Origin: Thermococcus paralvinellae
Lineage (GTDB): Archaea; Methanobacteriota_B; Thermococci; Thermococcales; Thermococcaceae
DNA length: 64,000 bases
Assembly (NCBI RefSeq): GCF_000517445.1
Contig: NZ_CP006965.1
Location: 1,092,681 to 1,156,680, forward strand
Direction of reading: 5' to 3'
The position numbers and the translations under genes were made by a program. The notes beneath the pieces were generated by a model. The model did no database searches. It had not been told where the DNA came from and was given only the letters and a program-made list of their open reading frames with translations. Of the stretch, positions 59,216-64,000 are shown one piece after another (the first letter of the stretch is position 1; every line of letters starts with the position of its first letter).

Positions 59216-59410
59216 TCAAACAGAAAGTCTCAAATAAACCTTGTGGGAGATGAAATCAATATAGTCAATCTCATATCCCTCAAGAACTAACTCTTTACCG
59301 AGTAGATTCTTTACAATGATTTTTCCATCTTTAACCTCAAGTAGGGTCACATCTGTCATAACGACCTCTGCTTTTCCATCTTCAAGGACTATGACTTTTG
59401 ACTGACACAT
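59216..59410 (-). CDS. cooT: CooT-family nickel-binding protein
   Basis: 64 aa. Begins MCQSKVIV, with the Cys2 that binds Ni in CooT of Rhodospirillum rubrum, then the short beta-rich pattern VMTDVTLLEVKDGKIIVKNL and LVLEGYEIDYIDFISHKVYL. CooT is thought to deliver Ni for CODH maturation. It is one base from cooC, consistent with one transcript. Size and gene neighbourhood are the main support. Confidence 0.8.
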   Translation of the reverse strand: MCQSKVIVLEDGKAEVVMTDVTLLEVKDGKIIVKNLLGKELVLEGYEIDYIDFISHKVYLRLSV

Positions 59411-59411
59411 T

Positions 59412-60218
59412 TTACAACACCTTTGAACGCTTTTTTATACTCAATATCCTTTTTGCAAGAGCTTCTACGTCTTTATACACCGCAGAATCCTTTGGAATTG
59501 CATCAACACCTTTTCCTTCATTATCCGTATAGATTACGCTCTCATCGAAGCTTACGAGATGATAAGGTGTTGAATCTGAGAAGACTTTTGCATAAAGCTG
59601 GGATGCCTTTATGGAATTGCGAACTTTATTTATTACAAGGATTATGTGTGGTATGTTGAGCTGCTTCCCCATTTCTATGAGCTTCCTCGCTATCAATAAA
59701 GATTTCAGCGTTGGTTCTGCCACACAGATCATAGCATCAAATTTTTCTGCCAATCCTCTTCCGAAAACCTCCGCTCCAGCTTCGCTATCTACAATAACAA
59801 TATCCTTTTCAGATAGCAAAACATGCAGCAAAAATGCTCTTGCGAGAGCTAACGCTGGACATAGACAACCTTCTTTACTCTGCTCTATGCTTCCAACTAC
59901 TACAAGCTTCAAGTTTGGCTTTATTTTTATACCATATTGTTCAGCCAAATCATCGACTTTTGGAGTCAGTGAGAACAAAACTCCCCATCCTTCTCCTGGT
60001 TTTGCTCCAGTTCTTTCCTCTGCAAGCTTTTCATTCCGTGAAAGGGGGACAACTTCTAAAGCTTCTTCGAATGGAATTCCTAAACTTTGAGCAAGATTTG
60101 GAACCGAATCTGTGTCCAAAGCCAGTATGTTATACCCCTTATCGGCTAAGATATGGGCCAATAAAGCTGAAATCGTGGTTTTTCCGACCCCTCCCTTTCC
60201 AGCAACAAGTATCTTCAT
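59412..60218 (-). CDS. cooC: CO dehydrogenase maturation ATPase CooC
   Basis: 268 aa, MinD/SIMIBI-type. Deviant Walker A AGKGGVGKTTIS at residues 7-14, DTDSVPN, then switch II DSEAGAEVFGRG, and NKVR in the base-recognition loop. CooC uses ATP for Ni insertion into the C-cluster. A CxC motif (GCLCPA) matches the metal-binding site of CooC dimers. AGGTATT lies before the ATG at 60218. A palindrome GTGAT-TAA-ATCAC (60232-60244) lies between it and cooS. Confidence 0.93.
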   Translation of the reverse strand: MKILVAGKGGVGKTTISALLAHILADKGYNILALDTDSVPNLAQSLGIPFEEALEVVPLSRNEKLAEERTGAKPGEGWGVLFSLTPKVDDLAEQYGIKIKPNLKLVVVGSIEQSKEGCLCPALALARAFLLHVLLSEKDIVIVDSEAGAEVFGRGLAEKFDAMICVAEPTLKSLLIARKLIEMGKQLNIPHIILVINKVRNSIKASQLYAKVFSDSTPYHLVSFDESVIYTDNEGKGVDAIPKDSAVYKDVEALAKRILSIKKRSKVL

Positions 60219-60293: not shown

Positions 60294-62195
60294 TCAAACA
60301 GGCCACTTAAGCTTCTTCCTCTTCTCAATTATTACATTGTATATTGTCTCTGCTGCTTTCACTGGATCTGGCTCAACGTAGAACTTTCCTCCTAGGAGAT
60401 CCTCTATGTCATCCGTGAGTAGTTTGGTGACTTTCTGGCTTCCAAGGACTGGTGGGACAACGCCCAAGTGCGTGAAGACACCGCTTGCAACGAAGTAAGT
60501 TCCTATTGCTACTGCCTTTTCGCTCATCCATTCTGGAGCAGAGCCCGCCACCGGTAAGTCTGAAATGTCAACATCAAGTGCATTGGCGAGAGCACTCAGG
60601 ACCAAGAGGATTCTTGAACAGTCAACACAGCTTCCCATGTGGAGACATGGTGGAATTCCAAGTGCTTCACATATCGCTTTTAATCCTGGACCAGCCATTT
60701 CAGCTGCTTCAGGAGTTAGTAATCCATGCATTGCTGCAGCAATTCCCCAACAGCCAGTTCCCACGACCAGAATATCCCTCTTGATAAGTTCCTTGGCCAA
60801 GGTGACGTGACCGTAGTTCTGTTTGACCCTAGGATTGTTACATCCAACTATTCCAACAATTCCCTTTATTGTCCCATCCTTGAGAGCATTTATTAGAGGC
60901 TCTAATGTTCCACCAAGGGCTTCAAGTATTGCCTCAACGCTAAATCCGGCGACCAACTCCATTTTGTGCTCTGGAATGTAAACCTTTGCTGGAACTCTGT
61001 TCTTGTAGTTTTCAATTGCAATCTTGATAATCTCCTTAGCTATCTCGTCTGCTCTCTCTGGCTTGAATTCAATATGTATTGCCCCTGGAATACGAGCTTT
61101 TGGTTCAGTTGTTATTATTTTAGTGTGGTAACATGATGCGACGTCGACTAATGATGGCATTAAACACTGATAGTCAACTATCACTGCCTCAACTGCACCT
61201 GTTATAATCGCCAATTCTTGCATCAAGAAGTTTCCAGCAACCTGAACTCCCATTCTCGAGAGAACTTCATTTCCAGTACAGCACATTCCAGCAACGTTGA
61301 TTCCCTTTGCCCCGTACTGCTGTGCCAGCTTCTGCATCTCTTCACTCTGAGCAATTTCGGCTATTTTCATAGAGAGAATTGGATTATGACCATGGACAAT
61401 TATGTTAACCATATCCTCCTTCAAGACTCCCAAGTTTGCCAGTGACTTTATTGGCTTTGGTGTTCCGAAGAGAATGTCGCTCAGATAGGTAGCCATCATT
61501 GAGCCACACCAGCCATCTGCCAGGGCAGTCCTTACACCATGCAGTAGAAGGCTAACCGGGTCTGCATCACATCCGATGTGGGTTCTGTGCATGCTCAAAC
61601 AGATTTCCCTATCGATTGCTCTTGGTAAGACTCCAAGTTTCTTCCAGACCTTAATTCTTTTGCTTGGTGCTGTTCCCATAAGCAATCGCACAGGTTCCTC
61701 ATCCTGCTTTCCAAACTCCATCTCAAGAATGTGAGCAACTTCTAGTGCAATTTCATTTTCACTCTTGCCCTCTGTTTTTACGCCTAGAATCTTTGCCAAT
61801 TCCTTGAGTTTTTCAACATCAGTTAGCTTGTAATCTTTGAACTTCCCCTCGGCAACACCCTTGAACACATGAACCACATCTCTTGAATGATCACTGTGAC
61901 CAGCAGCACCAGCGGCTATCATTCTTACAATGTTCCTTGCCACTATTGTGTCTGCATCTGCACCACAAACACCTTTAGTAGGCCCAGCACCGAATGGATC
62001 TATCCTACATGGTCCCATAGTACAGTTCCTACAACAAACACCCAAGAGGCCAAATCCACACTGCGGTTGCTGCTCTAAAAATCTATGCCAGGCAGTTTTA
62101 ACTCCGTCTTCTTCGGCTTTTTCAACAAGTTTCCCAACACCGGGGGTTATGGAAACTTGCTTTGAGGGAACCTTATATTTGATATATTCAACCAT
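60294..62195 (-). CDS. cooS: Anaerobic carbon-monoxide dehydrogenase catalytic subunit CooS
   Basis: 633 aa. Ni-Fe-S enzyme oxidising CO + H2O to CO2 with two electrons. The N-terminal Cys-rich part CGFGLLGVCCRNCTMGPCR supplies the D- and B-cluster ligands; GHSDHSRDVVHVF, MCCTGNEVL, GCNNPRVKQNYGHV and GTGCWGIAAAMHG supply C-cluster residues. Length is normal for monofunctional CooS. ATG at 62195 follows AGGAGGTG; the TTG-type upstream start would add three residues. Transcribed behind the ferredoxin gene with a gap of 12 nt. Confidence 0.97.
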   Translation of the reverse strand: MVEYIKYKVPSKQVSITPGVGKLVEKAEEDGVKTAWHRFLEQQPQCGFGLLGVCCRNCTMGPCRIDPFGAGPTKGVCGADADTIVARNIVRMIAAGAAGHSDHSRDVVHVFKGVAEGKFKDYKLTDVEKLKELAKILGVKTEGKSENEIALEVAHILEMEFGKQDEEPVRLLMGTAPSKRIKVWKKLGVLPRAIDREICLSMHRTHIGCDADPVSLLLHGVRTALADGWCGSMMATYLSDILFGTPKPIKSLANLGVLKEDMVNIIVHGHNPILSMKIAEIAQSEEMQKLAQQYGAKGINVAGMCCTGNEVLSRMGVQVAGNFLMQELAIITGAVEAVIVDYQCLMPSLVDVASCYHTKIITTEPKARIPGAIHIEFKPERADEIAKEIIKIAIENYKNRVPAKVYIPEHKMELVAGFSVEAILEALGGTLEPLINALKDGTIKGIVGIVGCNNPRVKQNYGHVTLAKELIKRDILVVGTGCWGIAAAMHGLLTPEAAEMAGPGLKAICEALGIPPCLHMGSCVDCSRILLVLSALANALDVDISDLPVAGSAPEWMSEKAVAIGTYFVASGVFTHLGVVPPVLGSQKVTKLLTDDIEDLLGGKFYVEPDPVKAAETIYNVIIEKRKKLKWPV

Positions 62196-62207
62196 CAAAA
62201 GCACCTC

Positions 62208-62849
62208 CTAATACCATCTAACTTCTGAATAAGCCATATACACATCCATTAACCTAGCTTTCTCTTCTTCCTTCTTTTCTTCGCTAACTGGTTTCATGTA
62301 TATCAATCCCGGAATCTTTAAACCAGAAATGAGCTGCTCTGCTCTATCTTTTCTGATTTCGTCCAGAAGTTCTTCCAAAGTGCCAAACTTCAAAGCCTTG
62401 GTTGGACATGCCTCGACACACGCTGGTTCCTTTCCTGCTCTTACTCTATCAATACAAAAGTCACACTTAAGAACAACCTTGTATTCTGGTTCATACTTGG
62501 GATGTCCAAATGGACACGCCATGACACACATTAGACAACCAATGCACTTATTCGAATTCAAGACAACAAATCCCTCTTCGCTCTTTTTAATTGCACCAGT
62601 TGGACAGACTCTTTCACATGGTGCGTCTTCACAGTGCTGGCATCTCATTGGAACGTTGAAGAAATCTGCAACAACAACCTTTATTCTAGGCTTTGGTGTC
62701 GGTTTTTCGAAGATTGCTCCAAAGAGGTCTTTACTCATTGAATGTTCCACAGCACATGCTATTTCACATGAACGACAACCTGTGCATTTTTCTGGGTTGA
62801 TGTAAATCGTTGGTTTCTCTAAATCTGTATTCATGGAAAGAAGTGACAT
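62208..62849 (-). CDS. cooF: CooF-type 4Fe-4S ferredoxin subunit
   Basis: 213 aa with four [4Fe-4S] clusters: CTGCRSCEIACAVEH, CQHCEDAPCERVCP, CIGCLMCVMACPF and CDFCIDRVRAGKEPACVEACP, the pattern of HycB/CooF polyferredoxins. It carries electrons from CooS to the membrane hydrogenase. The C-terminal SGLKIPGLIYMKPVSEEKKEE is hydrophilic. GGGTGG precedes the ATG at 62849. First gene of the CODH operon. Confidence 0.94.
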   Translation of the reverse strand: MSLLSMNTDLEKPTIYINPEKCTGCRSCEIACAVEHSMSKDLFGAIFEKPTPKPRIKVVVADFFNVPMRCQHCEDAPCERVCPTGAIKKSEEGFVVLNSNKCIGCLMCVMACPFGHPKYEPEYKVVLKCDFCIDRVRAGKEPACVEACPTKALKFGTLEELLDEIRKDRAEQLISGLKIPGLIYMKPVSEEKKEEEKARLMDVYMAYSEVRWY

Positions 62850-62881: not shown

Positions 62882-62906
62882 GATTAATAAATAGGCCGTG
62901 TTCGGC
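62882..62906 (-). promoter_or_regulatory. cooF promoter with inverted repeat
   Basis: Minus-strand TATTTATTAATC (about 62893-62882) is the TATA box, giving a leader of about 15-20 nt before the ribosome site. Right upstream, GCCG-TGTT-CGGC (62895-62906) is a short perfect inverted repeat overlapping the BRE position. A regulator bound here could control CODH transcription. Confidence 0.45.
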
Positions 62907-62923
62907 TGATAGAACAAAAGATA

Positions 62924-64000
62924 TCATTTATATTCGTATAGAGAAACAAGAACTTTTTCCCGAATATGCTTATATTCTCTCAAGAGTTCCTTAGCAAAGT
63001 CAGTCAAGATTGTTATGCCCTTTTTTCTTCCCCCTCTTACAGAAATCAACAGTGCTACTCCTAGTTTTTCTTCTAAATTCTTGATTCTTTCCCAGTAAGT
63101 TGATGGAGAAACTCCCAGAGCTTTACATGCAGCCCTAAATGAGTTAACTTGAGATATAAGCTCCAAAAGTTCCAAAATATCACCTAGAATCTCAATACCA
63201 TCCTTTGCTACAAAATAGACATTAATACGAGGAGATAATCCTATGGTATTGTGGCTTATAACACAAGGAGAAAAGAGCATCTTTCTAAGTTCTTCTCGTG
63301 TTATTCTCCTATAATTTATTTCAAATCTTGAATGAGGACATTTAGAAAAATTCCCATAAGGGCTGAGATACAAAGTTCTGCACTTTTCTCCACTCGTAGA
63401 TGTCAAAACTGTGATTGGATAATTCTCTATGAAGACTTTTATGGCATTGTAAAAGTACTTCTTACCATAATGGAGCCCAATTTCGACGTTTTCTTTCTTT
63501 GCCACCTTTTCGATGAATTTATCTGTATTGGGAGAATTATAGAACTTGGGACCTATTGTTATTTTTAACCCGTAACTTTTGCATAGATCAATAATTGACA
63601 AAACATTAACAAAATCGTAATTTGAATCAAGAAGTACATATGCCTCAAGGTTGTCTATTCCTTGAGACAGGAGCATCTTTACAGTCTGGATATTAGTCTT
63701 TAACTCTCTATATGATGGAATAACCAATGATATGAAATCAACATTTTCCAGCGATGTTCTGTGAAGGAGATTTTTAGATACCGAAACTGGCAAGAAAAGG
63801 GTGATTTTTCTACATAGCTCCCTAATTTCATGAATAATAATATTGATTTTGGAATGAAGAAGAGGATTTGGACAGAGTAATAGTCCCTCATTGAATTTGA
63901 AGTCATCAAGATAGAATCTCAGCTTTTCTAGGGCTTCAAGAGGCAACATAACTCCTGCACAGCCAAATTTCTCTTTCCAAGGGCATATCAGACAACTACT
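62924..64000 (-). CDS. Regulator fusing a Cys-rich radical-SAM-like part to a ModE/LysR-type HTH (start outside window)
   Basis: The frame is open through the right edge, so the ATG at 63949 is not necessarily the start: upstream codons read SSCLICPWKEKFGCAGV, giving C-x2-C-x7-C just before it. About 359 residues are visible. The middle looks like a TIM-barrel-type alpha/beta fold (NVDFISLVIPSYRELKTNI, DLCKSYGLKITIGPKFYN) with CRTLYLSPYGNFSKCPHSRF, similar to C-terminal parts of radical-SAM/SPASM proteins. Residues near the end (SQVNSFRAACKALGVSPSTYWERIKNLEEKLGV) are a ModE/LysR-type winged HTH. Located 75 nt upstream of cooF on the same strand, it is the best candidate regulator. Confidence 0.7.
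   Translation of the reverse strand, partial: SSCLICPWKEKFGCAGVMLPLEALEKLRFYLDDFKFNEGLLLCPNPLLHSKINIIIHEIRELCRKITLFLPVSVSKNLLHRTSLENVDFISLVIPSYRELKTNIQTVKMLLSQGIDNLEAYVLLDSNYDFVNVLSIIDLCKSYGLKITIGPKFYNSPNTDKFIEKVAKKENVEIGLHYGKKYFYNAIKVFIENYPITVLTSTSGEKCRTLYLSPYGNFSKCPHSRFEINYRRITREELRKMLFSPCVISHNTIGLSPRINVYFVAKDGIEILGDILELLELISQVNSFRAACKALGVSPSTYWERIKNLEEKLGVALLISVRGGRKKGITILTDFAKELLREYKHIREKVLVSLYEYK

Follow-up and report, generated by a model that had tools for sequence, protein, structure and literature searches.

A gene directly 5' of, and on the same strand as, the CO dehydrogenase (CODH) genes cooF-cooS-cooC-cooT of Thermococcus paralvinellae (Table 1) bears on how hydrogenogenic Thermococcus species sense CO without a heme of the CooA or RcoM type. 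The gene runs off the right edge of the window, the 64,000-nucleotide stretch analysed in this study (G000:C1:1092681-1156680 of the complete 1,957,742-bp chromosome); therefore, 12 kb past that edge were added (L002; window position = L002 position + 58000). The complete open reading frame comprises 374 codons (L002:4924-6048, minus strand, or 62924-64048 on the window scale), 48 nt of which lie beyond the window, in agreement with the sequence-only reading that the N-terminus is cut by the window edge. It opens with a GTG where it overlaps the upstream gene by 4 bp; translation could also start at the ATG of residue 2 or of residue 4, of which M4 is the invariant one in the orthologue alignment. 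The N-terminus reads MMNMSILAVQPSSKCDSSCLICPWKEKFGC, and the window edge splits a CX3CX2C motif behind its first cysteine.

Table 1. Features of the corR-CODH region of T. paralvinellae, in window positions.
Feature	Position	Strand	Evidence or size
corR-like gene	62924..64000 in window, ORF on to 64048 outside	-	374 aa
Radical-SAM-like partial TIM barrel, residues 17-190 (residues 1-16 with C15 outside window)	63479..64000	-	AF2 and Foldseek (MoaA, SuiB, SkfB, viperin, PqqE); sub-threshold Pfam Radical_SAM
C19-x2-C22, in-window share of CX3CX2C (C15/C19/C22)	63983..63994	-	sequence, orthologue conservation
CPNP (C59-P62) where radical SAM has GGEP	63863..63874	-	in-register profile alignment with genuine radical-SAM proteins; invariant
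Twitch/SPASM-like Cys site: C223-x13-C237 with G232-x4-C237, C262	63263..63382	-	conservation; aligned with MoaA C-terminal cluster site
Winged HTH (LysR HTH_1; also ModE-like), residues 292-351	62996..63175	-	profile and fold searches
Dyad TGTTC-N8-GAACA holding most of CCGAACACG	62899..62916	-	seen in 5 loci
CCGAACACG, 9-bp, candidate CorR site	62897..62905	-	kept in 16/16 corR-cooF intergenic regions
Stretch resembling published T. onnurineus EnfR repressor site (AATCTTTTTGTTTACATT), just 3' of TATA-like TTTATTAA	62867..62885	-	comparison, by eye
cooF-like 4Fe-4S ferredoxin, first CODH operon gene	62208..62849	-	profile search
cooS, anaerobic CO dehydrogenase	60294..62204	-	TIGR01702, 777.8 bits
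cooC-like P-loop ATPase	59412..60218	-	profile search
cooT	59216..59410	-	PF10133

Identity and distribution of the regulator pair

The overlapping upstream gene encodes a V4R-domain protein (PF02830, 44.4 bits against a cut-off of 31), while the protein under study ends in a Pfam HTH_1 domain (40.9 bits against a cut-off of 26.6, residues 292-351 of 374), bearing out the clear winged helix-turn-helix (HTH) that had been read at this end from the sequence. A V4R protein and a LysR-HTH protein beside a CODH cluster make up the CorQR pair of T. onnurineus (PMC6557876), which activates the CODH cluster of that organism (PMC4791640, PMC6557876). The orthologue in T. onnurineus NA1 shares 50% identity with the window protein and lies beside an exact copy (27 of the 27 bases tried) of the codh operator printed in PMC10570040. 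The gene order V4R-CorR-CooF-CooS-CooC-CooT-hydrogenase is equal in the two loci, and no essential difference separates the two pairs. Given the overlapping V4R gene and the orthologue adjoining the published operator, we are confident in assigning the window gene, on sequence comparison, as the DNA-binding member of a CorQR pair. The earlier impression that it resembles no known CO regulator, CorQ/CorR included, was therefore wrong, and its description as a one-component switch is doubtful since a V4R partner is always encoded beside it. Throughout this study, CorR denotes the DNA-binding member and CorQ the V4R protein. Kim et al. 2015 (AEM 81:1708) reportedly named the V4R protein CorQ and the LysR-type protein CorR. 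The names are assigned the other way round in PMC6557876.

Compared to LysR-type regulators, CorR carries the same HTH_1 domain above cut-off but has it at the C-terminus and lacks a periplasmic-binding-protein-like effector domain; the layout of an N-terminal HTH_1 followed by such a C-terminal effector was not seen in CorR, and the profile search returned no effector domain. CooA and RcoM are, like CorR, CO-responsive activators of CO oxidation genes; however, both are heme-based, whereas domain searches of CorR and CorQ found no heme-binding domain at this locus. Compared with every intact relative, the V4R gene of T. paralvinellae has a frame break in an A-run (L002:6464-6600, minus strand, or 64464-64600 on the window scale, outside the window). 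The conserved N-terminal ~45 residues (MEDI..LMEKWREVYK..) are out of frame with the remainder, intact copies occur in related genomes, and the break is either a sequencing error or a real truncation.

CorR was found in 16 of the 115 genomes of the phylum. All 15 genomes containing the ~780-bit CooS clade carry CorR, directly adjacent by coordinates. In the sixteenth, whose genome is fragmented, the gene lies on a very small contig. CorR is absent from genomes with CooS of other types. The presence of CorR thus tracks the hydrogenogenic CODH (15/15 genomes), a pattern that we confidently attribute to co-inheritance. A block V4R-CorR-CooF-CooS-CooC was also identified in another archaeal phylum, in one of the 394 genomes sampled (G739; CorR 57% and CooS 76% identical), and, as this block has no hydrogenase, the regulator pair travels with the CODH genes and not with the hydrogenase. 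Relatives in three other archaeal phyla were limited to ordinary radical-SAM proteins or were not found, a scan of genome contigs returned three Thermococcus only, and the plasmids searched gave no match. Kim et al. 2015 reportedly noted a Korarchaeum homologue, and none was found in the genomes sampled here.

Two further observations concern the CODH genes themselves. The G739 block (L107:5010-14774) lies beside FAD/Fe-S, CCG-domain and FlpD genes (heterodisulfide-reductase-like), with hydrogenase genes absent and an IS200-like transposase gene downstream of corQR-cooFSC; this gene content suggests that CO oxidation may be coupled to an Hdr-type complex in that genome. In the window, cooS is 96% identical in protein and 87% in DNA to T. 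onnurineus within the gene, compared to ~52-76% in flanking windows, and T. onnurineus is closer than the nearest relative by CorR (89% in protein, 84% in DNA), which suggests that the cooS allele alone may have been exchanged.

The N-terminal domain of CorR

Searches with the single CorR protein against Pfam, NCBIfam and PDB (phmmer) returned the HTH alone and no radical-SAM match, which would explain the annotation of CorR as a LysR-type regulator; a radical-SAM signal emerged only with family alignment, fold search and profile alignment. Searched singly, five of 13 family members match Pfam Radical_SAM (best E 7.8e-4) and four of 13 match NCBIfam MoaA (best E 3.9e-4), all below the curated cut-offs. 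The best PF04055 score, 19.0 bits for the orthologue in the L107 block (residues 30-187), falls short of the gathering threshold of 29.5 for the superfamily. In the reverse direction, the CorR family profile picks up genuine radical-SAM proteins (L083, L084) with E values of about 1e-4 to 5e-5 per genome, in a register that places CX3CX2C over CX3CX2C and CPNPLLHPKI over GGEPCLHPRF. A profile-profile alignment with 13 archaeal MoaA also has both Cys sites in register, at a low probability (19.5, E 0.0012), and the radical-SAM claim does not rest on it.

Structure prediction gave the clearer signal. A first AF2 model, of full-length CorR, was poor (pLDDT 62), and Foldseek still ranked MoaA first (E 3e-5). 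The second model, covering the N-terminal part of an orthologue from another phylum, was built from an alignment of family members only, with no radical-SAM sequence, and reached a pLDDT of 79 and a pTM of 0.79. Foldseek again placed MoaA first (E 1.5e-9, TM 0.64 over the query), as for a partial TIM barrel, and the top 17 PDB matches were all radical-SAM proteins, including MoaA, SuiB, SkfB, viperin, a sactipeptide maturase, AbmM, PqqE and BlsE. On these models, the predicted radical-SAM fold of the N-terminal part is a firm assignment. The proposal made from the sequence, of a radical-SAM-like, Cys-rich barrel module joined to a winged HTH of LysR/ModE type in a gene upstream of the CODH operon, is thereby supported, and the completed reading frame supplies the CX3CX2C motif, and the models the barrel, that had been expected in the missing part. 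Of the comparisons suggested at that stage, the fold search returned a MoaA-like fold, whereas Pfam Radical_SAM stayed sub-threshold, SPASM gave no match and ModE fell below its cut-off.

Conservation was assessed in 15 CorR orthologues that are 50-84% identical to the window protein; T. onnurineus NA1 and a single genome from a different archaeal phylum are among their sources. Nine cysteines (C15, C19, C22, C59, C156, C223, C237, C262 and C308) are unchanged across this range of identity, which argues that the pattern is not due to chance. C15-x3-C19-x2-C22 forms, in all 15, the CX3CX2C motif that follows the first strand in the radical-SAM superfamily. The C-x2-C-x7-C noted from the sequence corresponds to C19-C22-C30; its first two cysteines belong with C15 to this motif, but C30 is not conserved and was ruled out as a ligand, being missing from the T. 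onnurineus orthologue. The later Cys-x14-Cys segment exists as the pair C223/C237, although with a spacing of x13, and is followed by the invariant C262. The invariant C223-x8-G232-x4-C237 and C262 come close to the Twitch/SPASM rule (C-x9-15-G-x4-C), with the spacing to the glycine one short and no match to SPASM/Twitch profiles.

The SAM-binding GGE(P) motif, which is common but not universal, is replaced by CPNP in 15/15 sequences. In radical-SAM enzymes, GGEP normally holds SAM by its amino group, at a site close to the open cluster iron. Judged by this fold geometry, CPNP would place an extra invariant cysteine at that point. CorR therefore shares with MoaA, its closest solved fold, and with other Twitch/SPASM radical-SAM enzymes the CX3CX2C motif, the barrel fold and a second Cys site with GX4C, but differs in CPNP for GGEP, in its C-terminal DNA-binding domain and in its regulatory gene context. 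The N-terminal ~270 residues are likely a radical-SAM-derived barrel with a Twitch-like extension, predicted to hold one or two [4Fe-4S] clusters; our confidence in this Fe-S content is moderate. Since the SAM-binding motif has been exchanged, the domain may act as a repurposed Fe-S sensor and not as an enzyme, and a putative Fe-S or metal-sensing role for CorR is plausible.

The cooF promoter and reception of the signal

CCGAACACG lies just 5' of the TATA-like TTTATTAA (62884-62891), and no word longer than 9 bases is shared by all seven loci of a subset that includes T. onnurineus and the other phylum. In five loci, CCGAACACG is the right arm of a dyad TGTTC-N7/8-GAACA, while other loci have CGTGTTC ~45 bp upstream of it. 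Its position and conservation fit an activator site by BRE/TATA, and we consider it, with moderate confidence, a candidate operator bound by CorR. The whole genome contains two copies of CCGAACACG; the second, inside an ORF, was not retained as part of a regulon. EnfR represses the CODH cluster of T. onnurineus. Its site there covers the TATA box (PMC10570040), and, given the similar stretch in the cooF promoter, EnfR control is probably common to T. paralvinellae.

On balance, we lean towards the view that the window gene is the CorR of CorQR, a CO-responsive activator whose Fe-S domain receives the signal and whose winged HTH binds CCGAACACG. CorR would act together with CorQ, the Cys-rich V4R protein from the overlapping gene, with the Fe-S domain of CorR as the putative signal-receiving module. 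A cluster in this domain would change its ligation or redox state in response to CO, or to the low-potential conditions that CO oxidation creates, with CorQ assisting or gating this change; the winged helix would then bind CCGAACACG directly upstream of the cooF BRE/TATA, and bound CorR would recruit the basal machinery against the EnfR repressor on the TATA box. CorQR is reported to be needed for CO-dependent CODH expression in T. onnurineus. Binding of CO itself at the CorR cluster is speculative.

Less probably, CorQ is the sole sensor of CO or redox and uses its cysteines for this, in the way proposed for the MsvR V4R domain, with CorR only as a DNA-binding arm in which the Fe-S sites are structural. 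CorQ has five invariant cysteines (C85, C88, C99, C124 and C132), its nearest NCBIfam model is MsvR of methanogens, a weak similarity (43.8 bits compared to a cut-off of 220), and CO sensing has been attributed to the V4R domain (PMC6557876). The conserved V4R cysteines of Methanosarcina acetivorans MsvR affect redox-dependent DNA binding (PMC3729527); however, MsvR combines HTH and V4R in one chain, while here the HTH resides on a separate radical-SAM-like protein. In addition, the three separate invariant Cys groups of CorR, including C59 at the normally SAM-facing motif, exceed the need of a scaffold. Considering the CorQ cysteines and the MsvR precedent, either CorQ or CorR, or both, could take the signal.

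Where the Fe-S domain of CorR is taken as the receiver, as we favour, the radical-SAM fold could serve as a heme-free gas sensor in which, with CPNP in place of GGEP, the open [4Fe-4S] iron has ceased to serve SAM and gains a fourth ligand in Cys59 or CO, and this switch drives binding of CorR to the CODH promoter, a specific proposal that we hold to be doubtful. It is unlikely that CorR, besides binding DNA, acts as a radical-SAM enzyme that cleaves SAM and modifies CorQ, a peptide or a small ligand, with the product controlling transcription. The CX3CX2C motif of every orthologue and a Twitch-like site as in PqqE, SpeY and MoaA relatives would suit such an enzyme, but the invariant CPNP would not, though some true radical-SAM families also lack GGE, and the block V4R-CorR-CooF-CooS-CooC contains no substrate peptide or further biosynthetic gene. 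Finally, a ModE-like molybdate or tungstate regulator is highly improbable, as the winged HTH resembles ModE (PDB 2ijl, E 4.4e-6) but scores 42.9 bits with TIGR00637, far under the curated cut-off of 98.5, is C-terminal and comes with no match to the Mop domains in CorR, while the MoaA-like N-terminal fold and the CODH neighbours speak against it and the CO-induction data in T. onnurineus contradict it.

In the CorQR literature searched, the descriptions are confined to the LysR HTH and the V4R domain and leave out the radical-SAM-like part of CorR. A gas or redox regulator that joins a radical-SAM-like domain to a DNA-binding one was likewise not found in the literature searched, the coverage of which was incomplete. 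CorQR thus appears to be a known system with an apparently undescribed architecture, in which a radical-SAM-derived domain, probably Fe-S-bearing, forms the body of a transcription factor of CO metabolism. This radical-SAM-like architecture suggests a possible route to heme-free CO sensing in hydrogenogenic Thermococcus, and the radical-SAM/Twitch scaffold with its nine invariant cysteines, together with the promoter element, provides concrete targets in an organism that has working genetics and is of biotechnological interest for the production of H2 from CO.
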